This document shows positions 20,521 to 39,770 of a stretch of 64,000 nt of DNA, piece by piece. The notes beneath the pieces were generated by a model. The model saw nothing but the letters and a program-made list of their open reading frames with translations, ran no database searches and was not told the DNA's origin. The stretch's first letter is position 1. Every line of letters starts with the position of its first letter. The stretch spans positions 112,501-176,500 of the forward strand of contig CAUJNA010000486.1 of assembly GCA_963377175.1 (NCBI GenBank), in the 5' to 3' direction. A program made the position numbers and the translations under genes. The stretch is from Effrenium voratum. Lineage: Eukaryota; Sar; Dinophyceae; Suessiales; Symbiodiniaceae.

Positions 20521-21124
20521 CAAGGGAGTTGCATCGGTTTTCTGCGCCACTGGCAACTTAGACCCCCAAGTCTCCCACAGAGGAATCGCCCAAAAGTTTA
20601 AAAGGGGGACCCCTCCCCCTTTTGGGTTCCACGCTAATCTGCAGGCAATGAGACGATGCCGCATGTCTGCAACCCTCCCCCATAGGTCATAGGCTTGATT
20701 CCTGTTGGCAAGTGTCGAATTATCCAGACCTGTTTGGCACTGCGTTTCTGTGGTTTGAAGGCAATCCCGTGACTTGCAGGTCGTTTTCGAAAGGAAGCCA
20801 AAGGGCCCCAATGCTTTCGGGGCTTGCATACCTTGGGCCTGGTTATTTGTTGGTGCACCGAGGCTCCTACTTTGCAAGTAGGTGATCAAGCCGGATGCCC
20901 ACCCCCCCTTCCCCCACAAACACCCTGCTTACAAGGTTAGGCCGAATTTAATTAGGCAGCCAGACTAATTGCTTTGATTATTGGGGCAGCCGCATGTTCA
21001 AACAAGACTCGTTTGTCTTGCTGGGTTTCCTAGGGACAGCCCAGGTTCCTTCCCAAACTCCCGGCTACTCCCGGGGCTTCCCTACCCATCGCACCTGCAA
21101 GTTGTTTGCGCGCGCGCGCGCCAG

Positions 21125-21225
21125 GCGCCGGCGCCCGCGCCCGGAGAGTTCAGCTGCGCGGCCTGCGGGGAGCTCTTCGGCGCAGCCGGGGAGCTGCGGG
21201 CGCACTGCAAGAGCGAGCGCCATGT
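21125..21225 (+). CDS. REI1/ZNF622-like protein, exon with first C2H2 zinc finger
   Basis: After CCAG the frame reads APAPAPGEFSCAACGELFGA then AGELRAHCKSERH. It contains C-x2-C-x12-H-x5-H, with Cys codons at 21155 and 21164 and His codons at 21203 and 21221. REI1/ZNF622 proteins carry this U1-type finger followed directly by YN-x-KR. Ending the exon after gt at 21225 (GC donor) and joining to 22510 gives SERH-V-YNMKRQL. REI1-like proteins act in cytoplasmic maturation of the 60S ribosomal subunit. The following intron contains the CCAAG array. A true initiator exon was not assigned with certainty. Confidence 0.65.
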
Positions 21226-21289
21226 GCCCGGGGCCCCAGCGCAGCTCAAAGCTATTTGCTATTTGCCGGTTCGCCGGGTTCGGGTGAAG

Positions 21290-22150
21290 GAAGCAAGGCA
21301 AGGCAAGGCCAAGGCCAAGGCCAAGGCCAAGGAGGCCAAGGCCAAGGCAAGGCAAGGCCAAGGCCAAGCCAAAGGCCAAGGCCAGGCCACGGCAAGGCAA
21401 GGCAAAGGCAAGGCCAGGGCCAGGCCTGGCCGCAAGCCAAGCCAGGAAAGGCAAGCCACGCCAGGCAAAGGCAAAGGCAAAAATAAAGGCAAAGGCAAGG
21501 CAAGGCAAGACAAGCCAAGCCAAGCCAAGCCAAGCCAAAGGCAAAGGCAAAGGCAAAGGCAAAGGCAAGCCAAGCCAAGCCAAGCCAAGCCAAGCCAAGC
21601 TAAGCCAAGCCAAGCCAAGCCAGGCAAAGGCAAAGGCAAGGCAAGGCAAGGCCAAGGCCAGGCCAAGGCCAAGCCATGCAAAGGCCAAGGCCAGGCCAGG
21701 CCAGGGCAAGGCAAGGCAAAGGCAAGGCCAGGGCCAGGCCAGGCCTGGCCGCAAGCCAAGCCAAGCCAAGCCAAGCCAAGCCAAGCCAAGCCAGGAAAGG
21801 CAAGCCACGCCAGGCAAAGGCAAAGGCAAAAACAAAGGCAAAGGCAAGGCAAGGCAAGCCAAGCCAAGCCAAGCCAAGCCAAGCTAAGCCAAGCCAAGCC
21901 AAGCCAGGCAAAGGCAAAGGCAAGGCAAGGCAAGGCCAAGGCCAGGCCAAGGCCAAGCCATGCAAAGGCCAAGGCCACGGCAAGGCAAGGCAAGGCAAGG
22001 CAAAGGCAAGGCCAGGGCCAGGCCAGGCCTGGCCGCAAGCCAAGCCAAGCCAAGCCAAGCCAGGCAAGGCAAGGCAAGGCAAGGCAAGGCAAGCCAAGCC
22101 AAGCCAAGCCAAGCCAAGCTAAGCCAAGCCAAGCCAAGCCAAGCCAACCA
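21290..22150. repeat. CCAAG / GGCAAAG repeat array with higher-order structure
   Basis: About 860 bp are built from ccaag, gcaag, ggcaaag and ggccaag words. A larger block of roughly 300 bp recurs, recognisable by ccatgcaaaggccaaggcc (near 21673 and 21957) and ggcctggccgcaagccaag (near 21425, 21745 and 22027). Frames of one to three hundred codons are open on both strands (Lys-Pro-Ser-Gln-Ala and Trp-Leu-Gly-Leu-Ala types). These are artefacts of a repeat with no stop codons. It lies wholly in the intron between zinc-finger exon A and exon B of the REI1-like gene. Confidence 0.9.
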
Positions 22151-22509
22151 AGGTCGTGGGCTGCCTGGAGGGGGTGGCTGGGGCTGGTTGGCCTGGGGCT
22201 GGGCTGTGAGAGATGGGCGTGAGAGAGGTCTTTCGGCTTGGGAGGAAGTGCAGTGTGTCAGAATCGCTTTTTGGTTGGTCAGTATTGGCATCGGCTGGAA
22301 AGGCCGGCGAGGCTGGGGTTGTTGAAAGAAAGTTTGAGCAAAGGGCAAGGCGCCCATGGATTACCATTGCAGCGCTTTGCTTTTGCCCTTTTTGACCATT
22401 GGATTTTGGAGGCTTCCTTTTTCTACTTTTTTTGGAGTTAGTCAGACTTCACCGGCTGCGACTCAGCATGAGATGGGCTCGTCTGCTCGGGTGGGTCTTG
22501 CGACTGTAG

Positions 22510-27710: not shown

Positions 27711-27724
27711 TTTTTCCCCATATC
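27711..27724 (+). repeat. Left half of target palindrome plus target site duplication ATATC
   Basis: Host sequence tttttcccc (27711-27719) is followed by ATATC (27720-27724). The ATATC is repeated directly after the 3' LTR at 38814-38818, then ta, then ggggaaaaa (38821-38829). A 5-bp duplication is normal for Ty1/copia integration. Confidence 0.9.
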
Positions 27725-27980
27725 AGTCAATTATCACGATGACATTTATGGCCCAGAGGTACATGAGGTAGGTTCTCATGTAGTCAGTTGCATGTTGTAC
27801 ATTCAAGTGGTTGCCAAAGCATGATCCAATCACTGCTTTGGCTCAAGTGCTGAAAACAGCGCGTTGCACCGCGCTAGCCCCAAGGTTAAGGGAGAGGTCG
27901 CAGTCACGGAGGGGTTCGTTCCTTTTAAGGTCCCGGGTTCCCCCGTTGTTGACAAAACTGTGTTTCCCTCTCCTTTGAGT
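27725..27980 (+). repeat. 5' LTR, 256 bp
   Basis: Begins AGTCAATTATCACG and ends CTCTCCTTTGAGT. It reads the same, base for base, as 38558-38813. The ends are AG...GT instead of the usual TG...CA, with only a short inverted repeat (TCAA/TTGA, 2 bp in from each end). It should supply promoter and polyadenylation signals, but no clear TATA box is seen. Confidence 0.93.
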
Positions 27981-28034
27981 GGTTATCAGCCGTAACGCTT
28001 TTCGGGTAAACGAACCCTTCCGTGACTGCGACCT
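27896..28034 (+). promoter_or_regulatory. Long stem spanning LTR end and primer-binding site
   Basis: Arm 27896-27920 in the LTR and arm 28009-28033 in the leader are inverted complements at 24 of 25 positions. The single difference is a G-U pair in RNA. A flanking A-T pair (27895 with 28034) extends the stem to 26 bp. The 88-nt loop contains the LTR end and the primer-binding site. The stem closes 11 nt before the first ATG of the accessory ORF. A role in priming, packaging or translation control is inferred. Confidence 0.75.
27981..27992 (+). promoter_or_regulatory. Candidate primer-binding site, half-tRNA type
   Basis: ggttatcagccg lies directly after the 5' LTR. Its complement, ggctgataacc, looks like an anticodon stem-loop with TGATAA rather than a tRNA 3' end. 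Some copia-family elements (Drosophila copia, yeast Ty5) prime from a tRNA cut in the anticodon loop. This could be the same, with an Ile-like GAU loop. The primer identity is inference. Confidence 0.45.
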
Positions 28035-28045
28035 GTTGGTCGCAC

Positions 28046-30088
28046 ATGGAAGTCGGCCCTCACCGCGGCACACGCGGTGGGAAAGGGCCGCGTGCCCGAT
28101 TGTACAACACTCTGCAACAGATCGTCGTCGACGAGTACAAGCGGCAGAACAGACGATTCCGGTGGATCAGGTTTGCGGACGCCTCGAAGCAACAGGTCGA
28201 GGCGCTCTTCTCCTGGCGTGAGTCACTGGATAGTTGGCACCTGTGGAATTTTGACCAAGAAGCCTTCGACGTGATCCAGGCCGCGGACAACGCTTATCAG
28301 CAGCGTCTCGCATTGGTTGAAACCACAGGAGTGGTATTGCCGCAGGGTGCGCCATCTCAGGATCAAGCCGCAGCCTCAGGCGCGGCGGGAGCATCAAGCA
28401 GTGCAGCGGACTGGCTTCGTCCTCCGACGCCTCCATCAGCTTCCTCCTGGTTGCAAGATTCGCGCACTCCTTTGCCTCGCATTCGGCCATCTGCAGAGGA
28501 AAGACAAGCCGCAAAGTCAACTCTTCGCGGGGTATACGCTAAAGCTGCGGAAACGCGGCGGGAGAGCAGCAGGGAGCGATCAACACAAAGATCGAGGTCC
28601 CCATCGCCAAGAAGGTCGAGGTCTCCATCGACATCACCGAGACGAGGACCAACTGCTGCTGCCCCTGTGGAACCACGGGCCCATAGTGTTGAACCCGCGC
28701 TTGCGCGGGAGGGAAGGCCATCCAGAACTTCCCTAGCCACTCGGCCCATCGTTTTGGCTCCACAGAATAGCATTTACCCTGTGACGAGGTTTGACGAACA
28801 CGGTACCTGGGTATTGGTGCGGGAGGCATCACAACCACGTGAAGCGGCTCCTCGTCGGCGAGCGCAACGGACGTCTGGGCAGCTTCGCCAAGCCGATCCT
28901 TACCTCCTCGCTGACGAGACGTGGAGGGACCCGCCAAGGAGGTCCTCCACGAGCTCACGCTCACGGTCTCCTGACCGCCGCCCGGCGCCTGCGGAAACCT
29001 TCCGCCTCGACGCCTACAGCTCGGACGAGGACCCACCGCAAAACTTGGAGTCCATCAGGACGGGCAGGTCAGCATACGTGCCTCGGCGCGTTTACGAGGC
29101 GCCGACTCACTCCGAGCCCATCGCGCTTCACAGCCGAAGAATCGGGGCAGTTCAACCGCCGCCCCCAAAGGCCGCCCCCAAGGTCATCTTCGGCAGCAAG
29201 CCACCGGTGCCCAAGGAGGTCCCCAAGACAGTTTCTCCAGCGCCTGCAAAGGCAGATATCCCGAGGAAGTCACCGCCAAGGGCCAGATCTCCGGTTCGGA
29301 CTCAGAGTGCATTCGGTTACAAGGCACCTCCGCGAGGCTTGAACAAGGCCGAACCCAGAAGCAAATCGAGCTCAAACCCGCCACAATTCGGGTACATCGT
29401 CAAGCCGCCACCTCCGCAGGTCGTTCAAGCAGCTGCTGCTAGCGCTGCAACTCCTGAAGCTGGCACGCGATTCCGCTCGCCACCAAGGAGGGCACCGCCT
29501 GCGCCCCCGCCGCCGCCACCTCCGCCTGGAAGGCCGGTGCCGCCCAAGGAGCTTGTTGTTGCTCTTGACTGGCACGGAGTTCTTGACGTTGGGCAGCAGG
29601 GACCCCACCTCAACCCGGAAGTGATCCGACATCTCGTTCAGTTTGCAGCGGACTACGCACCTATAAATTTTATAGTGCTATCCTTCGTGGGCAGGGCTGC
29701 AAGCGAGTATCGCCGCCGCGAATTTCAGGTCGCCCTGGAGCACGCGCGGACAACATCTGGACTCACTTTTTCTGCGATAAAAATCGTTCACGAACGGTTG
29801 GGAAGGGGAGGCAAAGCAGACGCCCTGCAAGGGCTGGGCGTACACGCCCTTATTGACGATACAGCATCGATTGTCCGTGAAGCTCAAAAGACAGGCATCG
29901 CGGCGTTCCGCAACTTTCCGCACTTCGGTCCGAGCGGATTTGCCAACGCGCTTGAGAACCTTGGTGAGTTCATCGAGTCCCGGAACAGACAATCCATTCC
30001 GGCGGCAAGGGGCCTGCATCCATCGCAGTACCTCGAGGAGATCCACCGATCTGCATCCCAGCTGCCCGCCAGCCGGGTACTTCGATAG
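28046..30088 (+). CDS. Accessory ORF of retrotransposon: RS/Pro-rich protein with HAD-like C-terminal domain
   Basis: The open frame begins at 28022; the first ATG is 28046, giving 680 codons (positions below counted from 28022, so subtract 8). Residues 25-110 form an unrecognised alpha-helical, Trp-rich region (ARLYNTLQQIVVDEYKRQ). Residues 175-330 are rich in Arg-Ser (SRSPSPRRSRSPS), like SR splicing proteins, and 330-505 are Pro-rich. Residues 508-660 resemble the HAD fold: motif I ALDWHGVLD (D516, with His where the second Asp is expected), motif II Ser554, motif III Lys598 and motif IV LIDDT (D612, D613). Loss of the second Asp suggests altered or absent phosphatase activity. Copia elements normally lack such an ORF. 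It lies between the primer-binding site and gag on the same strand. The role is unknown. Confidence 0.75.
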   Translation: MEVGPHRGTRGGKGPRARLYNTLQQIVVDEYKRQNRRFRWIRFADASKQQVEALFSWRESLDSWHLWNFDQEAFDVIQAADNAYQQRLALVETTGVVLPQGAPSQDQAAASGAAGASSSAADWLRPPTPPSASSWLQDSRTPLPRIRPSAEERQAAKSTLRGVYAKAAETRRESSRERSTQRSRSPSPRRSRSPSTSPRRGPTAAAPVEPRAHSVEPALAREGRPSRTSLATRPIVLAPQNSIYPVTRFDEHGTWVLVREASQPREAAPRRRAQRTSGQLRQADPYLLADETWRDPPRRSSTSSRSRSPDRRPAPAETFRLDAYSSDEDPPQNLESIRTGRSAYVPRRVYEAPTHSEPIALHSRRIGAVQPPPPKAAPKVIFGSKPPVPKEVPKTVSPAPAKADIPRKSPPRARSPVRTQSAFGYKAPPRGLNKAEPRSKSSSNPPQFGYIVKPPPPQVVQAAAASAATPEAGTRFRSPPRRAPPAPPPPPPPPGRPVPPKELVVALDWHGVLDVGQQGPHLNPEVIRHLVQFAADYAPINFIVLSFVGRAASEYRRREFQVALEHARTTSGLTFSAIKIVHERLGRGGKADALQGLGVHALIDDTASIVREAQKTGIAAFRNFPHFGPSGFANALENLGEFIESRNRQSIPAARGLHPSQYLEEIHRSASQLPASRVLR

Positions 30089-30459
30089 CCATTGCTGCAA
30101 GCCGTTAAAACCGTCGCTTTGCGCGGTACAGCTTTTGCAATTACAAGCCTTCGATTTGCAGACAAATTCTCAATACAGCTTGGCAACATCCCTCGATAAA
30201 GCACCATAGTGCGGCAGTGCGGATCAATCAATCTACAAGTACAATTACAAATACAGAATTCATCAGGTGCAAAGCAGCAGGGCGCATTTTCTTGAGTGGC
30301 TCACTTGAGCGTTTCGCAACGTATTTTCTTGAGTGGCTCACTTGAGCGTGTCGCAATCAGCTGCCAATCCAGGGATATCTCCTCGTAGCACCTTTTGACA
30401 CGCTGCTCAAAGCGCGTGGAGCTAGCTTCGTGTGAGTGCAAAAGTTGCATTGCTGTGTC
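30089..30459. other. Spacer between accessory ORF and gag with 37-bp tandem duplication
   Basis: A non-coding spacer of 371 bp. It contains two adjacent 37-bp copies at 30283-30319 and 30320-30356 (core ttcttgagtggctcacttga), identical at about 35 of 37 positions. Spacer length and the duplication suggest a control region, such as an internal promoter, splice acceptor or reinitiation signal for gag. This is inference. Confidence 0.6.
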
Positions 30460-32733
30460 ATGGCTTCAACGGGTTTGTCACCGCCATCAGAACCCCGTTC
30501 AAGGTCAACCCCAAATAGGGATTCCGAACCGGATGACCCTGACCTAGCCATGGTTCCTGCAGTTATGTCCACAGTTCGCACATCCACACCTCAAAGAGCA
30601 GCCCAAACACGACCATCATCACCCCCGAGTGGTCCGATCGTGTCAGAACCGACATCATCCGAAGCTTCCCCAGCCATTCAGTTTCCTTCACAGGGATCGC
30701 AATTACCTGACCCGATGACTAACGTACCCGCTGCGGCATTTATAGCTGGAGCTGCGGTGCAGCAAGCTCATCGAGCATCCGACCTCGCTGCTCAGGCAGC
30801 CAATCACGCCTTGCATCAACAGCAGGCCGCCGATCAGGCGAGACAAGAGGCCGGATGGATCAGGGAAAGGGCTGTAAGAGAAGTTTCAGACGTTAGGGTT
30901 CAGGCCGCTCAGCTAGCTTCGCAAGCACAGCAGGCTGTTCAAACAGCACAACAAAGTGAGGCTCAGGCTAGGCAACTCATTGAGCAGACACGACAGGAAG
31001 CCTTAGGCCATGTCGAGAACGCACGACAGGTTGTTAATGCCACTCAACAGGACGCTCAGCAAGAGGTTCAACGCATTGTTCAAGAGGCTCAACAGGCAAT
31101 CCTACAAAGGGAGCAAACCATTGCCAGTCAAGAGCATACCATTCGTGGATTGTCTCAGGAAAATTCTGTGATGCATCAACGACTTGGTGATCTCGAACGT
31201 GTTGTTGCGCAGCTCACCCAACAAGCTCGTGCGACCCCTGTTCCGATGCAAGAGTCCCCGCCGAAAGCCGCATCAATAGCCGAAACAGCTACGGAAACAA
31301 GCGCGGCTAAAGCCTCAAGTCAAGGCACAGTTCCCCCAGGAACCCATCAGCCGGTTGGAGCACCTCAGGTTTCAAGTTCACAAGATGCCTCCGGTGTTGC
31401 CGCATCGTCGCAAGGGAATGCTTTTACAAGTACTATCCCCGACCCTCCGTGTGGTTCTGTTCAAAGTTCAGGACTTGGTCACGATGCCCCAGCTGATTCA
31501 AGGGACCCTGGTGGGGGTGCAACAAGTCAACATCTCGTAGGCCATTCGGCAGTGCTAGGAGCAGCGTCCTCTGTTGGAGACGCAGCCCCCGGCGCGTCGA
31601 GGACTAGCGGGTTGGGTAGAGACGGTTCAAGGGATCAAGCCGATGTGAGAGTGCAAGTGACGGCTTTAGCGGAAATGGTTCAGCAGCTTTCCCAATTGGT
31701 TGCTAATCAAGTGGCTCCGCCACCTCCGCCTCCGGCCGCACCACCTCCAGTGCCTCCCATTCCCCTTTTTGGGGCGCCGCCTCCGCCGAAAGCTGGCAAT
31801 GGCACTCATGTTCCACCAGTACCAATCACAATGTTGGGAGGGTTATACTCGTCATCCCCGCAAGCGCCATCGGCAGCAAGCTCCGACACATCATCAGACT
31901 CCAATGGAGATGATGATACCCCACAATGTCGAGTTTGCGGCGGCAGCCATGAAGACACTGATTGCCCATACCTCACCATGAATGGTGGTGGGGGAGGTGG
32001 GGGAGGCCCTGGCCAGTTCCCCAATGCAGACCCGTCTCAAGCTGCCGATCCTAGTGTAGGCATGACCGTCACCGATCACGCCACGCATGAGGAATCCGTT
32101 GTTCGCGTCAAGGACCTCAAGGATCTCGTGTTGCCATCCCCTCCGGAGAACGCTGGTCAGGCTAGAGGTTTCATCAACCAAGTTTTGATGGCCATCGGTC
32201 GACTCCAGAAGACCCCCGGAGATGAAGTTTACCAGTGGGCCCAAGCATGCATGTCCTCCACCGAGCAAGAACTCGTCGCGGACAAGCGTTTCCCACGGTT
32301 AGATCGTGAAATAGCCGCAAAGCTCCTTAAGACCTGCCGCAAAGGTAAGTTCGGGCTCTTGTTTCAGAATATGGTTGAACAAGAGAGAATCTCGTCAGGT
32401 GGGATGCCCGTAGGGAGAATCATGTTGCGTGCTATCTTCAAGCACTTTCAGTTAGAACGAGGTAGGCTCGGAACCTTAGGAGGTCGCAACTTGTTAAAGT
32501 TGTCTCTTGCAGGCCCGTCCCTTGCTGACCTGGATGCCTTTCGGGAGAAGTACGTTTACGTGCTGACCGCAATTCCCGTGGCAGAACAACCCAGGGAAAC
32601 AACCTTGTTTGATCATCTGTTGGATGAGCTGGAAAAGTGCACTGCGCTGAAGCCTAAGGTAGAAAAGGCACGGGAAGCCCCTTTCGGTAGCCACCGTAGG
32701 AAGCCGGAATGGTTGTGGTCCAAGGTTGATTAG
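30460..32733 (+). CDS. gag: Gag-like structural protein of copia element
   Basis: 757 codons from the ATG at 30460; the frame is open from 30436. Residues 1-90 are Pro/Ser-rich. Residues 93-255 are a Gln/Ala-rich heptad region typical of a coiled coil. Residues 255-480 are low complexity and end in a poly-Pro run. A zinc-knuckle-like C-x2-C-x3-H-x4-C lies at C490, C493, H497, C502, one residue shorter than the classic CCHC. After a Gly run, residues 545-757 form a helical domain (LKDLVLPSPPENAGQARGFI) similar in position to a capsid domain. Having the knuckle before rather than after that domain is unusual. It should assemble the virus-like particle and bind RNA. The stop TAG overlaps the opening of the pol frame. 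Confidence 0.8.
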   Translation: MASTGLSPPSEPRSRSTPNRDSEPDDPDLAMVPAVMSTVRTSTPQRAAQTRPSSPPSGPIVSEPTSSEASPAIQFPSQGSQLPDPMTNVPAAAFIAGAAVQQAHRASDLAAQAANHALHQQQAADQARQEAGWIRERAVREVSDVRVQAAQLASQAQQAVQTAQQSEAQARQLIEQTRQEALGHVENARQVVNATQQDAQQEVQRIVQEAQQAILQREQTIASQEHTIRGLSQENSVMHQRLGDLERVVAQLTQQARATPVPMQESPPKAASIAETATETSAAKASSQGTVPPGTHQPVGAPQVSSSQDASGVAASSQGNAFTSTIPDPPCGSVQSSGLGHDAPADSRDPGGGATSQHLVGHSAVLGAASSVGDAAPGASRTSGLGRDGSRDQADVRVQVTALAEMVQQLSQLVANQVAPPPPPPAAPPPVPPIPLFGAPPPPKAGNGTHVPPVPITMLGGLYSSSPQAPSAASSDTSSDSNGDDDTPQCRVCGGSHEDTDCPYLTMNGGGGGGGGPGQFPNADPSQAADPSVGMTVTDHATHEESVVRVKDLKDLVLPSPPENAGQARGFINQVLMAIGRLQKTPGDEVYQWAQACMSSTEQELVADKRFPRLDREIAAKLLKTCRKGKFGLLFQNMVEQERISSGGMPVGRIMLRAIFKHFQLERGRLGTLGGRNLLKLSLAGPSLADLDAFREKYVYVLTAIPVAEQPRETTLFDHLLDELEKCTALKPKVEKAREAPFGSHRRKPEWLWSKVD

Positions 32734-35700
32734 CCTTGGAGCTCCATCAGGACAAACGGAACAGGGATGAGTTTGACAAAAGTCTTCAAATCAAGCCAGC
32801 CGTTATGTCCCAGGGGAATAATTCTAATGCCATGCCCGCAGCAAGCAGCGAGGACAAGCCCAAGAAAAGTAAGAAGAGCAAGAAGGATAAATCTGCTGAC
32901 CAGCAGACTCCGGCAGCCCCTGCGCCGAAGGTTAAAGCTCCAAAGCCGCCTCCTCCTAAAGCTAATGCAGCTCCAGCCCCCAAGGGTAAAGGTAAGGGCG
33001 GTTCGAACGATAACCTTACTCCTAGGTCTAAGGCCATCAGTAAGACAGCCACTATGACCGCGGCGGAGAAAGCCAAGATGCCGTGCATGTTTTATGCCTA
33101 TAATTCGTGCAAGGCCAAGCAGTGTGCATTTCTCCACAGTGATTCCAACAAGTACACTGGTCCCAAGCCCAAAAGTTTGTTGTCCCCGCCGCCGCCAAAG
33201 GCGAGTGCAGCTGTTGCACAGCTCATTCCGGCAATGGCAAGCGTCGCCTCCGATGACAATCGCATTAGTTGGCTTTGGGATACTGCCGCAGGGAGACACT
33301 TGATCGGACGTCAAGCTTTGAATAGCAACATGATCAAGTGCGTGCGCGAGAGCAGCACACCCGTAGGTTTTGCGACTGGGGGTGGTGCCCAACAAGGCAC
33401 TACTTCATTAGGGTTCGAGGACAGCCGAGTGATACCTGCTGAAGAGCAGGTGTACGTCCTCCGTGATTGCCCACCAGCGCAATCCATCGGTAAGACCGTA
33501 ATGGATCAAGGACACCTTTTCATTTGGGATCCACGTGAAAACGTTCCATACCTTGTGCCCCCAAAGGACATCAGTAGATGTAAGATTAACGTGCCCCGCA
33601 ATGCGCGCATTAATGCATCTAGGGTAGTGGAATACGTTCCCCAATATGATGAAGTGGTAAAACCCAAATTGGCAGAGTCGTCAACTCACCTCTGGCCGAT
33701 TGAAGCCGCTGCTATGAGCGCGGCCGAAGACGATGCCGTTTCTCTGTGCGATGACTCGTGCCAAGCGTCAGATGAAGGTGAGATAGATCAGGTTCCTGTC
33801 AACATGCTAGCGGCCGAGGAAGCCCCTCCTCCCGAGGACGAACTTCCATTGATCGCCTTCGGAGATGGTGACCCGACACATGATACTGCGTTGAAGGAGC
33901 AAGCAAAATCTCCTGAGCACATGAGGTCCCATTTCCCGAAGAACCCGTTTTGCAAGGTGTGTTCAATCTCAAAGACCACTTCCGCAAGGGTAGCGCACAA
34001 AAAGGATACTAGATCCGACGACAAAGTCGATGTTCCAACCGCACCATTTCAACAGTTGGCTACCGATTCCGTGATTCTTGCCATGGGCGATGAACATCTC
34101 GGAGTAGGTTTCGGTGGAATCAAATCTCACCATGTAGTACGTGATGTTTTCTCAGGCGTACGACTTGCTTACCCTGTGAGTAGGCGGGACACGCAGGCGC
34201 ATGTTAAAAACTTCCGTCAGTTCATGGGCCTTCGGGCCACTGATTCGCCGCCAACATGTCTAGTAAAAATGGATGCAGCAGGAGAGCTCGAAGGAGCGGC
34301 CCACGAAGTCGGTCTCGTCCCCGAGACAAGCTTACCGAACAGGTGGCCACACAACACCGTTCTGGAGCGCGACATTCGCGAGGAGAAGGAATGCTGCCGC
34401 AGCATCCACATGCAATCAGGGTTGCCTTATTCGTTGCATACGTTTAGTTACCCATTTGCATGTCTCTCCATGTCGTTCGACAGGCCTGCACCATTCAGCC
34501 CAGGGAAAACCCAATGGGAAGCCCTCACCAAAGAAAAGTTCCAAGGGAAGAGATGCTGTTTCGGGCAATTAGTTTGGTACAGAACCAAGACTCCTGGCAA
34601 GCGCACTCTCGATCCGAACATGGCGCCAGCGCTCTTTTTGGGTTGGAGGGTCGATCCGGGGTTGCGGTACCGTAATGTGGTCAAAGTCATGGACTATGAA
34701 GCCTTCCGTAAAGATGGTTCCATTTCCGTTCACGATGTTCCTGAACCGGAATTGTTCGTTGAGGACGGAACCCCAAGCTTTCCGATTGCAGCAGCAGCAG
34801 ATAGAGCATTGCATGGTGGCAAGACAGAAGGGTCTGATCCCCCACCTATGCCCCTGCGAGAGGCGCCCTTTGGTGCCCCACCGACTCCATCCGCTGTCAA
34901 ACCAAAATCCGTGTACATAACTGTTGAGAGGATCATCAAGTTCAAGGAAACGCCAGGTTGCCGTGCATGCACCGGTCATTCCAAGATTCACAGTGTCGAA
35001 TGCAAGAAGAGGTTCTCCGAACTTGTCTCTGCAGATCGAGCTGAAGCAGCTGCAAAAAGCGCTGCCAAAACTGAATCTAAGGAACCCATTCCCATTGTGC
35101 ATACTGAAGGGGATGAGGAGCTAGCTAGAGCAATCCACGCATCCGAGCATGGAGAGGATCCTAAGCCCGCAGTTAGTGCAGAAGATGTTGCGCATGAATT
35201 TGATGCAGCCGAAGCTGGGGAGCCCGCTCCCTCAAGACCCGGTGGCTCATTTTTCGATACTGCGCCAGCGACAGCCGCTACATCGCAAGGTGAAGATTTT
35301 TGGGTGTTCAAAGAAAATGCCAACTGTTTGGTCCGATACCATATCATGCCAAGGCAAAATCTCTTTACCCCAAAAGAGGTCGAGGATTGCCCCGTTTCCC
35401 CAGAAAGATTTACTGCAGCTCGCACCACTCGTGCCGTGTTTCAGGGGGGCAAAGCAGACAACATCCATGATGGTTGGTTTGGTAGCCGACCCAATCGCTC
35501 ACTTGGAGATGCATGGACCGGGTTCACAGTGTTCAAGTTAAAACCCATTCAGTCCGATTGTGTTATCACCACAGGTGCAGCCGTGATGTTAGACTCCGTA
35601 CCGCCGACACCTCTCACCGATGCATCAAAGAACGGTCGTCCGAACACATTGCCAATTTTCGGCATGCCATGCAGCGCAGAGGTTGAAGCTCCACAGCGCA

Positions 35701-38405
35701 AGCAGTTTGAGGTTGGAAATCATCGTGCCCGCAAGAAACAGGCGCGTATTGACAAGTTGCCTGTGATGTTCGAATACGCATGTACACCAGAGTCCAATAT
35801 GGGTCGCGTGTTTGAAGGTCTTGGCATACCTCATGTTAGGCTGGCTAAAGAGTTTATCGACCTCAGCACAGATGAAGGAGAAATCCAGTTGCAGTCGCAG
35901 ATTGAAGGTTGTGATAAACCCAACCTCTGGGCCGCAATCCCCTGTACATCAGGTTCAGCATGGCAACGCCTTAATAAGGCCAAGTTAGGAAGCCAGTTCA
36001 AAAAGAAACTGAAGCAAAAGGTTAAAGAGTCGAGAGAGTTGTTCTCCAGATTCAGACGTCACGCAGAGACTGTCCTCCATCAGGGGGGTAGTGTTTCGTT
36101 TGAGTGGCCAAGGGATTGCGACAGCTGGGCTAGGGATGATGTTTCCGCATTCTTTAGAGAATATGCACACGTCTTCACCCCAGCGACCTTCCATGGTTGC
36201 GCCCTAGGCCTGAAGGACAGCAATGGCTATCCCATCAAGAAGCCATGGAAAGTCATGACCAGCAATAGCACACTCGCATCCGCACTAGGTGCATTCAAGT
36301 GTCCGCACGAAAAAGGGTATAAACATTCGCTTGCAGCAGGTAACAAGACCGCAAAGACCGCTTTCTACCCCGAAGGCATGTGTCTCACAGTTGCCCGTGC
36401 GCTGTATCCAACAGTTCAACCCGTTGTGCCTGCGATGCCTGTCCAAGTGCCATTGCCTCTCGATCACCGGGAACGTGAACAGCAGTTGAAGCACATATCC
36501 CCTCTCTCCGGTTTGGAAGATATAGGTGTTGCTGTTGAGTCCGATGAAAAGTGTCACGACATTCTTGAGCAAGTTCTTGATGTTGAAAATCTCATCGCAC
36601 ATTCCCTAGGACAAGTCACAGAGAAGAAGGATCCTGAGATCACCGCAATGGTGACCAGACTCTTGTCACGTGCCGAAATGTTGGCTTCCCCGGAAGCTCT
36701 TGAAGCCGTTCGACTTGAAGCCACAGGCCTGGAGAAAGCCGGTGCTTGGGATCTAAATTCAGTCCGAGAGTATGATCAAGTCGCTGCTGAGGCGCGACGA
36801 TCCAGTATAAAAGTCCATTTCGGGCAGTTGATGTCGCTAGCATCCGTCAAGTTCGCCGAACTCGCGAAACACCTTCAAAAGATGAAAGGTAGGATTGTGT
36901 ATCGCGGAGACTGTGCGAAAGACGAACATGGCGCAGCAGCTGTCTACCAAGAATTGGGAGCAAATCCCACGAGCGTACAAGGTCTTAATAACTGTCTCGC
37001 TTATGGATCCCTGCCAGGGAATTCCACCACAACAGCGGACGCTATAAAGGCTTATGTGCAAGCACTGCTGAAGTCCAAGTACCAAACTTGGATCACACTC
37101 CCGCCTGAGCTCCGGCCAAGGTGGTGGCGCGAGCGTTTCGTGAAACCTGTGGTTTTGCTCGTTAAAGCTCTTTATGGGCATCCTGACGCTGGCGGACTCT
37201 GGGAGGCACACCTCAAAGGGTTCATTAGTGAACTTGGAGGGCGTGAGGTCGCAGAGTTTCCTGGAAACTTCTGGTTCAAGGAGTCCGGGTTACTTCTCTC
37301 GACATACGTCGACGACTTGACGTTGGCCGGCCCCAGCCACCTTCATAAAGACTTCTGGGAAAAGTTAACAAGACTGGTTGATATAGAACCCCCAGAAGAC
37401 ATATACCGGGTGCTAGGCAGGAATCACCTTTTGATAGATGCTCCAAAGGACCCAACTGAACCCGATCTTAATGCCGCAATGGGCAGATTGAAAGGGGGCA
37501 TGGCGTTCGACATGCGGGATTATGCCCGTCAAACGGTAGCATTATATCTTGAGGTTGCACAGCTGAAAAGTGAAAAGTTGCGTGATGCCACCACTCCATT
37601 CTGTCCCGCTGGATCCCTTGATCCTGCAGATGACGCCTTGGAGGGTGAGCTCGGCTTCGCCGCTTGCCGCGTGTTGATGAAAGCCTTATGGCTCGGCCGT
37701 TTGGCACGCCCAGACCTGGTCAAGCCCATTGGCGACCTTGCCTCATTTGTTCAAAAATGGTCTAGAAACTGCGATAAGCAGCTACATAGGCTTGTTTGCT
37801 ACATAAACAGCACGGTCAACAGCACGCTAGTAGGCACAGTTCAAGATTCGACTGAGGATTTGCATCTGTCTCTTTATGTAGACGCCGATTTCGCCGGAGA
37901 GCGAGATGCAAAATCCACGTCCGGAGGATTCTTGATTTTGAGTGGTCCGCACACGCATTTTCCGCTTGCGTGGGTATCCAAAAGGCAGACATCGGTCTCC
38001 CGGTCAACGACCGAGGCGGAGATTGTATCTCTCGCATACTCCCTTTATCAGGAGGCGCTCCCTGCGCTTAGCTTGTGGGAGCTGATCTTGGACCGACCAT
38101 TCCATCTCAAGATCCACGAGGACAATCAGGCGACTATCCTCGTAGCAAGGAAAGGTTTCTCATCCAAGCTACGCTGTGTCCAGCGAACACACAAGGTGAA
38201 CCTCGCGTGCATCGCAGAGCAGCTTGAAAGCGAACACATCTCGATAGAATACGTCCAAACCGACATGCAGTCAGCGGACATCTTCACGAAAGCGCTTCCA
38301 CCCAACAAGTGGGACCATGCCATCCGGTTGCTCGGCATTCGTGTTGACCTACCAGAGAAGCTTGAAGACGTTCGTGAAAGTAGAGCCGCTAAAGCAGCTG
38401 CCTAG
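32730..38405 (+). CDS. pol: Pol polyprotein of Ty1/copia element (PR-INT-RT-RNaseH)
   Basis: The frame opens at 32730, in the -1 frame to gag. The first ATG is 32805, giving 1866 codons, numbered from there. A CCCH finger (C94-x7-C102-x4-C107-x3-H111) precedes an aspartic protease motif WDTAAGRHL (D159). Integrase has an H-x3-H-x6-C-x2-C finger and catalytic D421, D490 and E526 with the typical D-x35-E spacing. A Cys/His cluster GCRACTGHSKIHSVEC lies near 718. Reverse transcriptase has ADAIKAYVQA as motif A and YVDD at 1501-1504. RNase H has YVDADFAG (D1693), TEAE and HEDNQA. No internal stop or frameshift is seen. Expression needs a frameshift, reinitiation or a spliced mRNA, since only 4 nt overlap gag. 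Confidence 0.95.
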   Translation, partial: LALELHQDKRNRDEFDKSLQIKPAVMSQGNNSNAMPAASSEDKPKKSKKSKKDKSADQQTPAAPAPKVKAPKPPPPKANAAPAPKGKGKGGSNDNLTPRSKAISKTATMTAAEKAKMPCMFYAYNSCKAKQCAFLHSDSNKYTGPKPKSLLSPPPPKASAAVAQLIPAMASVASDDNRISWLWDTAAGRHLIGRQALNSNMIKCVRESSTPVGFATGGGAQQGTTSLGFEDSRVIPAEEQVYVLRDCPPAQSIGKTVMDQGHLFIWDPRENVPYLVPPKDISRCKINVPRNARINASRVVEYVPQYDEVVKPKLAESSTHLWPIEAAAMSAAEDDAVSLCDDSCQASDEGEIDQVPVNMLAAEEAPPPEDELPLIAFGDGDPTHDTALKEQAKSPEHMRSHFPKNPFCKVCSISKTTSARVAHKKDTRSDDKVDVPTAPFQQLATDSVILAMGDEHLGVGFGGIKSHHVVRDVFSGVRLAYPVSRRDTQAHVKNFRQFMGLRATDSPPTCLVKMDAAGELEGAAHEVGLVPETSLPNRWPHNTVLERDIREEKECCRSIHMQSGLPYSLHTFSYPFACLSMSFDRPAPFSPGKTQWEALTKEKFQGKRCCFGQLVWYRTKTPGKRTLDPNMAPALFLGWRVDPGLRYRNVVKVMDYEAFRKDGSISVHDVPEPELFVEDGTPSFPIAAAADRALHGGKTEGSDPPPMPLREAPFGAPPTPSAVKPKSVYITVERIIKFKETPGCRACTGHSKIHSVECKKRFSELVSADRAEAAAKSAAKTESKEPIPIVHTEGDEELARAIHASEHGEDPKPAVSAEDVAHEFDAAEAGEPAPSRPGGSFFDTAPATAATSQGEDFWVFKENANCLVRYHIMPRQNLFTPKEVEDCPVSPERFTAARTTRAVFQGGKADNIHDGWFGSRPNRSLGDAWTGFTVFKLKPIQSDCVITTGAAVMLDSVPPTPLTDASKNGRPNTLPIFGMPCSAEVEAPQRKQFEVGNHRARKKQARIDKLPVMFEYACTPESNMGRVFEGLGIPHVRLAKEFIDLSTDEGEIQLQSQIEGCDKPNLWAAIPCTSGSAWQRLNKAKLGSQFKKKLKQKVKESRELFSRFRRHAETVLHQGGSVSFEWPRDCDSWARDDVSAFFREYAHVFTPATFHGCALGLKDSNGYPIKKPWKVMTSNSTLASALGAFKCPHEKGYKHSLAAGNKTAKTAFYPEGMCLTVARALYPTVQPVVPAMPVQVPLPLDHREREQQLKHISPLSGLEDIGVAVESDEKCHDILEQVLDVENLIAHSLGQVTEKKDPEITAMVTRLLSRAEMLASPEALEAVRLEATGLEKAGAWDLNSVREYDQVAAEARRSSIKVHFGQLMSLASVKFAELAKHLQKMKGRIVYRGDCAKDEHGAAAVYQELGANPTSVQGLNNCLAYGSLPGNSTTTADAIKAYVQALLKSKYQTWITLPPELRPRWWRERFVKPVVLLVKALYGHPDAGGLWEAHLKGFISELGGREVAEFPGNFWFKESGLLLSTYVDDLTLAGPSHLHKDFWEKLTRLVDIEPPEDIYRVLGRNHLLIDAPKDPTEPDLNAAMGRLKGGMAFDMRDYARQTVALYLEVAQLKSEKLRDATTPFCPAGSLDPADDALEGELGFAACRVLMKALWLGRLARPDLVKPIGDLASFVQKWSRNCDKQLHRLVCYINSTVNSTLVGTVQDSTEDLHLSLYVDADFAGERDAKSTSGGFLILSGPHTHFPLAWVSKRQTSVSRSTTEAEIVSLAYSLYQEALPALSLWELILDRPFHLKIHEDNQATILVARKGFSSKLRCVQRTHKVNLACIAEQLESEHISIEYVQTDMQSADIFTKALPPNKWDHAIRLLGIRVDLPEKLEDVRESRAAKAAA

Positions 38406-38557
38406 TGCGCTGCAGCATGCCTGCAAAATTTCCAAAGTGTGCAAAGTGCCTGGGTGATGCTTGAATAACTTGTGTCAGTCGTTGTGATGTAAACTTGACT
38501 TCAAGTTGGCGTGGTAATGCGCCCAAGACACTCCCTCAGTGCCGTCAATGAGGGGGG
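38406..38557 (+). promoter_or_regulatory. 3' untranslated segment with polypurine tract
   Basis: Non-coding 152 bp between the pol stop and the 3' LTR. The purine run aggggggag (38551-38559) abuts and slightly enters the LTR start. It is the expected plus-strand primer. Confidence 0.75.
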
Positions 38558-38813
38558 AGTCAATTATCACGATGACATTTATGGCCCAGAGGTACATGAG
38601 GTAGGTTCTCATGTAGTCAGTTGCATGTTGTACATTCAAGTGGTTGCCAAAGCATGATCCAATCACTGCTTTGGCTCAAGTGCTGAAAACAGCGCGTTGC
38701 ACCGCGCTAGCCCCAAGGTTAAGGGAGAGGTCGCAGTCACGGAGGGGTTCGTTCCTTTTAAGGTCCCGGGTTCCCCCGTTGTTGACAAAACTGTGTTTCC
38801 CTCTCCTTTGAGT
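38558..38813 (+). repeat. 3' LTR, 256 bp
   Basis: Same length and, as read, the same sequence as the 5' LTR at 27725-27980. It is followed directly by the ATATC target duplication. Confidence 0.93.
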
Positions 38814-39770
38814 ATATCTAGGGGAAAAAGAATTCGACCACGGCTCACATTGAACCGGGAAGGACTCGGGTCAGCTTCTTCTTCGTCGCAAGGGCAAGAA
38901 GCTATCTCTGCATTCGGGTTGTTTGGGCAAACCTCTTGCCAGCCAAGCCAAACTAATGCTCAAGCAGAATGGGCTTGGGTGTTCTTGGTTTTGGGACCTG
39001 CCATACGCACATGGGTGTATTGCTTCGAAGGGGACCATTTTGCTGGTTGATTTAGCGGGACCGAGAGAATCATTTGGAGGAACCCATTTTGAAGACAAGC
39101 CAACATGGGTTTGCTTGTTGGATGGCACATTGTTCGGTGTGGTTGCAAGAAAGGGGTCCTCCTATGAGGCAAACCCATAACTTGTCGCAGGACAAGTCAC
39201 ACACCCGCATCGGCACGGAAGCGCGGACGCGGCGCGGTAGGGTGGACTACCAAGGCTCCAAGGAGAGAACTTGGGATTGAAGTGAGCAGCGTTCGGACCC
39301 CCCAAAAGGCCACGCTAGTAGGTGGGCGGGCATTTCTTGCACAAAGGGTTGTAAGTTGTCAAAGGGCACCAAATCCATTTTCGGGCTTCGACATACGAGG
39401 TGAGAGGTGGACCCTTAATTTTGCGTTGCATATCTCTATATATATATATATATATATATCCACATAGAATGCAGTGAGGGACGAGGTAAGAACTATTATA
39501 AGCTGCGCAGATAGGTATTGTCCAAACACGGCACCCTTTTCGGGCCATAGGAGGAAACGCCTGGTTTTCTCAGCAGCGTGCCATTGCCTGATTGCACTTC
39601 GGCTTCAACCGTGGCATTTGGCCTGGAATTCAGCAGTGTGTTGCCCAACTCCTGGTCTGACCAGGCCGGCACCCACAGGCTCTCCTTACCGCGGTTTAAC
39701 AGGTTTTGGCCCTTCGTGGGTGACCCCCTTGTTGGTTTTGAAAGGACGCCAAAAGGAGAGCGGGGGTTTA
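38814..39770. other. Intron right of the retrotransposon, TA repeat
   Basis: Continuation of the interrupted REI1-like intron. It contains (TA)n at about 39431-39459. GC-rich islands near 39200-39260 give no recognisable peptide. Confidence 0.4.

Follow-up and report, generated by a model that had tools for sequence, protein, structure and literature searches.

A stretch of 64,000 nt from the dinoflagellate Effrenium voratum (contig CAUJNA010000486.1, positions 112,501 to 176,500; hereafter the window, whose coordinates are used throughout) contains a long terminal repeat (LTR) retrotransposon, likely of copia type, with an additional open reading frame (ORF) upstream of gag. The extra ORF (28046..30088, + strand) lies between the 5' LTR with its primer-binding site and gag, and encodes 680 amino acids from its first ATG. 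We consider it probable that this is a genuine accessory gene of the copia-type lineage, encoding a small domain of the haloacid dehalogenase (HAD) superfamily attached to a basic tether that is rich in Arg/Ser and Pro and probably disordered. As judged from its sequence, it is an accessory ORF of putatively enzymatic type, with the predicted catalytic positions kept across copies. Copia elements are generally held to require no genes beyond gag and pol.

The frame is open from 28010, and the intact 680-codon ORF described in an earlier note on this DNA is confirmed; use of a GTG start would extend it to 688 residues (28022-30088). Residues are numbered here from the ATG at 28046 unless stated otherwise, and numbering from the GTG at 28022 adds 8, which returns the motif residues D516, H518, S554, K598, D612 and D613 exactly as the note had placed them, with His in place of the second acidic residue of motif I. 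The Arg/Ser-rich and Pro-rich regions reported there are likewise present. Residues 1-330 contain 15 Arg-Ser or Ser-Arg dipeptides, with Arg/Ser-rich segments distinguished by composition at residues 171-200 (28556..28645) and 298-312 (28937..28981), and Pro makes up 26% of residues 331-500, a linker whose last part (residues 482-500, 29489..29545, from composition and alignment) adjoins the domain. The name 'SR-like tail' proved apt for the Arg/Ser-rich composition but not for the position, which is N-terminal to the domain. A short motif, VTRFDEHGTWVLV (residues 246-258, 28781..28819), appears as VTRTDESGTWALI in the relative P0009. Identification as an SR protein was rejected because the 688-aa ORF yields no RNA-recognition motif (no match in Pfam), and a mis-framed gag was rejected because a separate gag-like ORF follows.

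The C-terminal domain (residues 503-644, 29552..29977) is predicted from structure models and fold searches to adopt a HAD fold, in keeping with the HAD-like domain proposed in the earlier note. Two models were built, the first from the window protein with 9 protein clusters and the second from the window protein with 20 of 40 clusters; Foldseek supported the HAD fold for the first and gave mixed results for the second. The second model has a Rossmannoid core in which strand 1 ends at motif I. The motif residues are predicted to lie where three strands (1, 2 and 4) end and where the helix preceding strand 4 begins, and the HAD fold requires them at such places. The first 16 rows of VIA-align are, by title, HAD-type, uncharacterised, or 3ewi, which we take to be a known HAD domain. 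A fold search of a viral library gave 23 rows at E<=0.001, of which 9 are named HAD, polynucleotide kinase/phosphatase or deoxyribonucleotidase, 10 are unnamed or uncharacterised, 3 are prohead protease and 1 is XkdF-like. The domain sequence matched no known HAD family profile in Pfam or NCBIfam, which its divergence may explain, and comparison with PDB sequences gave no match and hence no solved HAD structure. The polynucleotide kinase 3'-phosphatase family, to which the likeness is by fold only, gave no sequence match in Pfam or PDB.

The domain presents the motif set of the HAD superfamily: a nucleophile Asp, a motif II Ser/Thr, a motif III Lys and the acidic pair of motif IV. Motif I reads DWHGVLD (29567..29587), with D508 in the nucleophile position and H510 replacing the second Asp, and alignment identifies S546 (29681..29683) as the Ser of motif II, K590 (29813..29815) as the Lys of motif III and D604-D605 (29855..29860) as the Asp-Asp of motif IV. 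The alignment comprised 39 rows, the window protein and 38 clusters, with P0007 and P0008, which are frame-broken in the domain, excluded; rows were cropped at the DW[HR][GN] match where present, and for the list of invariant columns only, 11 of the 39 rows were excluded as partial or broken. D508 is kept in all 27 rows with a letter at that position, S546 in 33 of 34, K590 in 31 of 35, D604 in 33 of 34 and D605 in 32 of 34. Position 510 is His in 26 of its 27 rows and Arg in one, P0040, itself a match at E 1.5. Assignment as a HAD phosphatase by the strict motif was rejected, the second Asp of motif I being replaced in every one of these rows. In the part of a study of 5'-nucleotidases that deals with this motif, HAD phosphatase motif I is given as DXDX[T/V], and the second Asp of HAD 5'-nucleotidases is thought to hold the attacking water while its main-chain carbonyl meets Mg (PMC3946280). 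Since that contact to Mg is made through the main chain, His need not stop the formation of phospho-aspartate but may change what follows. With the Asp-to-His replacement, the domain may be a phosphatase, a phosphotransferase or a pseudoenzyme.

The extra ORF recurs in related copies. Searches with the ORF or its domain returned 40 protein clusters, 39 of them significant, and a chance ORF was rejected on this count. Residues 490-680 as query gave 9 proteins among 2306 candidates; they comprise a 688-aa cluster with 91 member sequences, a 682-aa cluster with 9, shorter or frame-broken forms, and the longer P0009, and these member numbers, with one contig listed per cluster of the first search, are not checked copy numbers. 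P0009 (1106 aa, 38 members) is 39% identical in the domain and has an order like that of the window protein, a low-complexity body with VTRxDExGTWxL followed by the C-terminal domain. As a query it led to two more relatives (1061 and 1095 aa). From 7946 candidates, a profile built on five domains retrieved 29 proteins at E<=10, all but one of which reached 5.8e-7 or better; some of them are only 30-33% identical. In P0034, the relative for which genomic context was available, 59 domain residues (80% identical) are joined to the reverse transcriptase of the same pol (95% identical), which places the extra ORF and pol together in at least one further copy. The earlier note had spoken of a captured protein, and capture from a host gene drew no support from sequence matches: neither the named cellular HAD families nor the solved HAD structures gave a match, and searches of bacterial and archaeal genome contigs confirmed no relative. 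Searches of viral contigs with the domain and with a 500-aa part of pol confirmed none. P0007 and P0008 both lose the frame close to one position, just past SAIK (window 29771-29782), through mutation or sequencing error.

The copies differ from one another by substitutions that are more conservative than those which random single-base changes would produce in these codons. The mean BLOSUM62 score of domain substitutions is 0.57 among eight domain copies, against -0.49 for random changes (0 of 5000 resamples as high), and 0.61 against -0.52 among five longer copies (13 of 5000); for the tether it is 0.10 against -0.64 (0 of 5000), and the C-terminal tail gives no clear signal (985 and 231 of 5000). 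Changes beyond one base step were left out, so that 37 of 45 (eight copies) and 18 of 20 (five copies) were kept for the domain, 91 of 112 for the tether, and 9 of 10 and 14 of 16 for the tail. Two of the five longer copies, P0001 and P0005, are frame-shifted over parts of the tether, and because the copies are related, the resamples overstate their independence. At the level of protein scores rather than of dN/dS, the conservative character of the substitutions points to purifying selection.

The main rival explanation is a pseudoenzyme, in which the HAD fold would persist as a module that binds RNA, a phosphate group or a host protein, hydrolysis would be lost with the Asp-to-His replacement, and the product would serve as an RNA chaperone, a nucleocapsid-like protein or a host-targeting adaptor. 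The absence of the second motif I Asp from all 27 covering rows, the Arg of the weak relative P0040, the replacement of K590 in 4 of 35 rows and the Arg/Ser-rich tether all agree with this explanation and weigh against an enzymatic accessory gene, as do, from another side, the frame-broken copies common among the returned clusters and the inability of a 39%-identical family to prove by itself that the ORF is used in the present element. We regard a pseudoenzyme as possible but unlikely: the other catalytic positions are kept in P0009-P0011, P0024 and P0028, at 30-37% domain identity, which is beyond the needs of a binding module, and His is compatible with a phospho-aspartate under the role of the second Asp in the relevant text on HAD 5'-nucleotidases (PMC3946280). 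The broken frames and the limited reach of the 39%-identical family would also suit a passenger, or a recent host-gene capture without function, riding in one expanding family. Such an ORF would not be expected to persist in near-full-length open form in the clusters of 91 and 9 member sequences, to change conservatively, or to share its tether motif and domain order with divergent relatives, and we find this explanation very improbable. That the ORF encodes a second structural, gag-like protein with a merely generic Rossmann-like fold is very improbable, given the separate gag-like ORF downstream, the placement of the motif residues in the model as HAD proteins require, and the prevalence of HAD-type, 3ewi or uncharacterised titles in the 16 leading VIA-align rows and of HAD-related names in 9 of the 23 viral library rows.

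If the extra ORF is an accessory enzyme gene, its product would most likely be made from the element's own 5'-proximal RNA, and the tether would hold it on RNA or within an RNA-rich nuclear compartment. Its domain would bind Mg, and D508 would become a phospho-aspartate; the acid/base role of the missing Asp would either pass to H510 or be dispensed with. The phosphate ends of element RNA or cDNA, nucleotides and phosphoproteins are candidate substrates. The extra ORF is the first after the leader, and gag might be reached by trans-splicing or reinitiation. A role on RNA ends, splicing or particle RNA, as suggested in the earlier note, is possible, and transposition might benefit from the product. 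A fuller scheme, which we offer tentatively and consider rather unlikely in its entirety, is that a HAD family with a near-invariant Asp-Trp-His motif I is brought to element RNA by an RNA-binding RS/Pro tether, where it would trim or transfer phosphate on RNA or cDNA ends, or would dephosphorylate RS-type splicing factors and so favour unspliced or trans-spliced genomic RNA. In this analysis, the Asp-Trp-His family was met only in the present element and in related proteins whose context is mostly unseen.

The element is bounded by two 256-nt LTRs, found by repeat comparison at 27725..27980 and 38558..38813 (+ strand, as are all oriented features given here), which are identical over their full length (0 differences) and flanked by copies of the target-site duplication ATATC at 27720..27724 and 38814..38818. 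The identity of the LTRs and the clean target duplication indicate a recent insertion. A candidate primer-binding site, TGGTTATCAG (27980..27989), was recognised from the sequence, and its first base is the final base of the 5' LTR; a polypurine tract, GAGGGGGG (38550..38557), lies directly 5' of the 3' LTR. The structural features of Ty1/copia elements, namely LTRs, target duplication, primer-binding site and polypurine tract, are all present. The + strand of the element contains three long frames, all in different phases: the extra ORF, the gag-like ORF and pol. The gag-like ORF (30460..32733 from the first ATG, open from 30436) is so labelled by eye and by position; it contains a zinc-knuckle-like CX2CX3HX4C, also seen by eye, and gave no Pfam gag match and weak rows only in NCBIfam. 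The pol ORF (32736..38405, open from 32730, first in-frame ATG at 32805) displays, by eye, motifs in copia order: a DTAAG protease site, DDE-type integrase residues, a YVDD reverse transcriptase and RNase H. Its sole informative Pfam match is the copia-type RVT_2, at E 0.00039 for 36900-38402 and thus under Pfam's curated cut-off, a second scan giving E 0.0027 with bits likewise under the cut-off. Pfam gave no integrase match for pol, NCBIfam gave no match, and a part of pol compared with PDB sequences gave none. The assignment to the copia type, which rests partly on the order of the pol motifs, is likely.

The primer-binding site is enclosed by the 26-nt arms of an inverted repeat, 96% complementary, one in the LTR (27895..27920) and the other in the leader (28009..28034), which stops 11 nt short of the extra ORF's ATG. 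The RNA fold of this region has a z of -5.09, with 0 of 200 shuffles as good. The 11-base TTTGGCTCAAG, which we take to resemble the 3' terminus of the spliced leader of dinoflagellates, is present in both LTRs (27837-27847 and 38670-38680) and nowhere else in the window; the two matches are copies of one, 0.09 were expected, and 1 of 100 shuffles had two. The full-length 21-base spliced leader, with up to 3 mismatches allowed, had no match in the window. The spacer between the extra ORF and gag contains two tandem 37-nt copies, 95% identical, at 30283-30356. The frames of pol and gag overlap by 4 nt only, within TGATTAG at 32727-32733 (pol open from 32730, gag ending at 32733), and pol may therefore need reinitiation or an unusual shift. 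At 35640-36380, about 250 pol residues between integrase and reverse transcriptase look methyltransferase-like by eye (FEYACTPESNMG, IPCTSGS, VSFEWP), and Pfam gave no match for this stretch. Elsewhere in the window, both strands of 20981-22222 are open over long frames across many short CAAGC/CAAGG-type repeats; this segment is not gene-like, its repeat analysis having covered the part from 22000. Rfam at the gathering threshold and a tRNA scan gave nothing across the 64-kb window.

The predicted domain shares the HAD core with MDP-1 (1u7o/1u7p), HisB-N (2fpr), GmhB (3l8e) and the T4 polynucleotide kinase 3'-phosphatase (1rc8). Counted from the first aligned residues, and if no gap precedes, D508 is in register with residue 165 of T4 polynucleotide kinase, 11 of MDP-1 (1u7p) and 10 of HisB-N, presumably the nucleophiles. 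Identity to these proteins is 11-18% in the listed alignments, and the present domain differs in having His for the second motif I Asp. If a HAD-fold ORF is indeed maintained upstream of gag, it would add an enzyme class to retroelement acquisitions. It would give a concrete way to approach the handling of RNA ends, splicing or host phosphosignalling by such elements, and it would be a naturally occurring HAD variant whose acid/base Asp is replaced by His. Should a tether-delivered phospho-enzyme be borne out, its gene would be the first of that type known from a copia element within the literature searched, and the HAD motif would gain a new catalytic variant.

Among the titles and abstract openings of the open-access matches listed, no HAD or other phosphatase ORF was found in an LTR element, and a search on dinoflagellate, retroelement and haloacid dehalogenase gave no match. 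Several known systems are nevertheless comparable, as far as the excerpted text of each report goes. In Symbiodinium, LINE and DIRS elements carry captured cytosine methyltransferases while the Copia elements described in that excerpt are without the domain (PMC5890265); these are also dinoflagellate retroelements with an enzyme domain whose key residues are conserved, but the domains sit in LINE ORF1 and DIRS pol, not in an LTR copia element, and are of another enzyme class. LTR elements of bdelloid rotifers have an ORF3 encoding a DEDDy exonuclease or a GDSL esterase (PMC5408684), likewise an extra enzymatic ORF with catalytic residues conserved or nearly so, but named after gag (ORF1) and pol (ORF2) and of other folds. 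Orchid Ty3/gypsy elements encode an AlkB-type m6A demethylase, active as an RNA demethylase in vitro (PMC9289625). They, too, keep within a lineage an extra ORF for an enzyme acting on nucleic acids, a role that is proposed for the present ORF, but they are Gypsy rather than copia, and in the screen of 121 angiosperm genomes excerpted there, all 15 unusual domains passing the filter were in Gypsy and 0 in Copia (PMC9289625). Additional ORFs of plant LTR elements are described as lying more often between pol and the 3' LTR (PMC7264820). Retroelements with additional enzymatic ORFs are well established; the present case differs from them in its predicted enzyme class, in belonging to a copia-type element and in its position upstream of gag.
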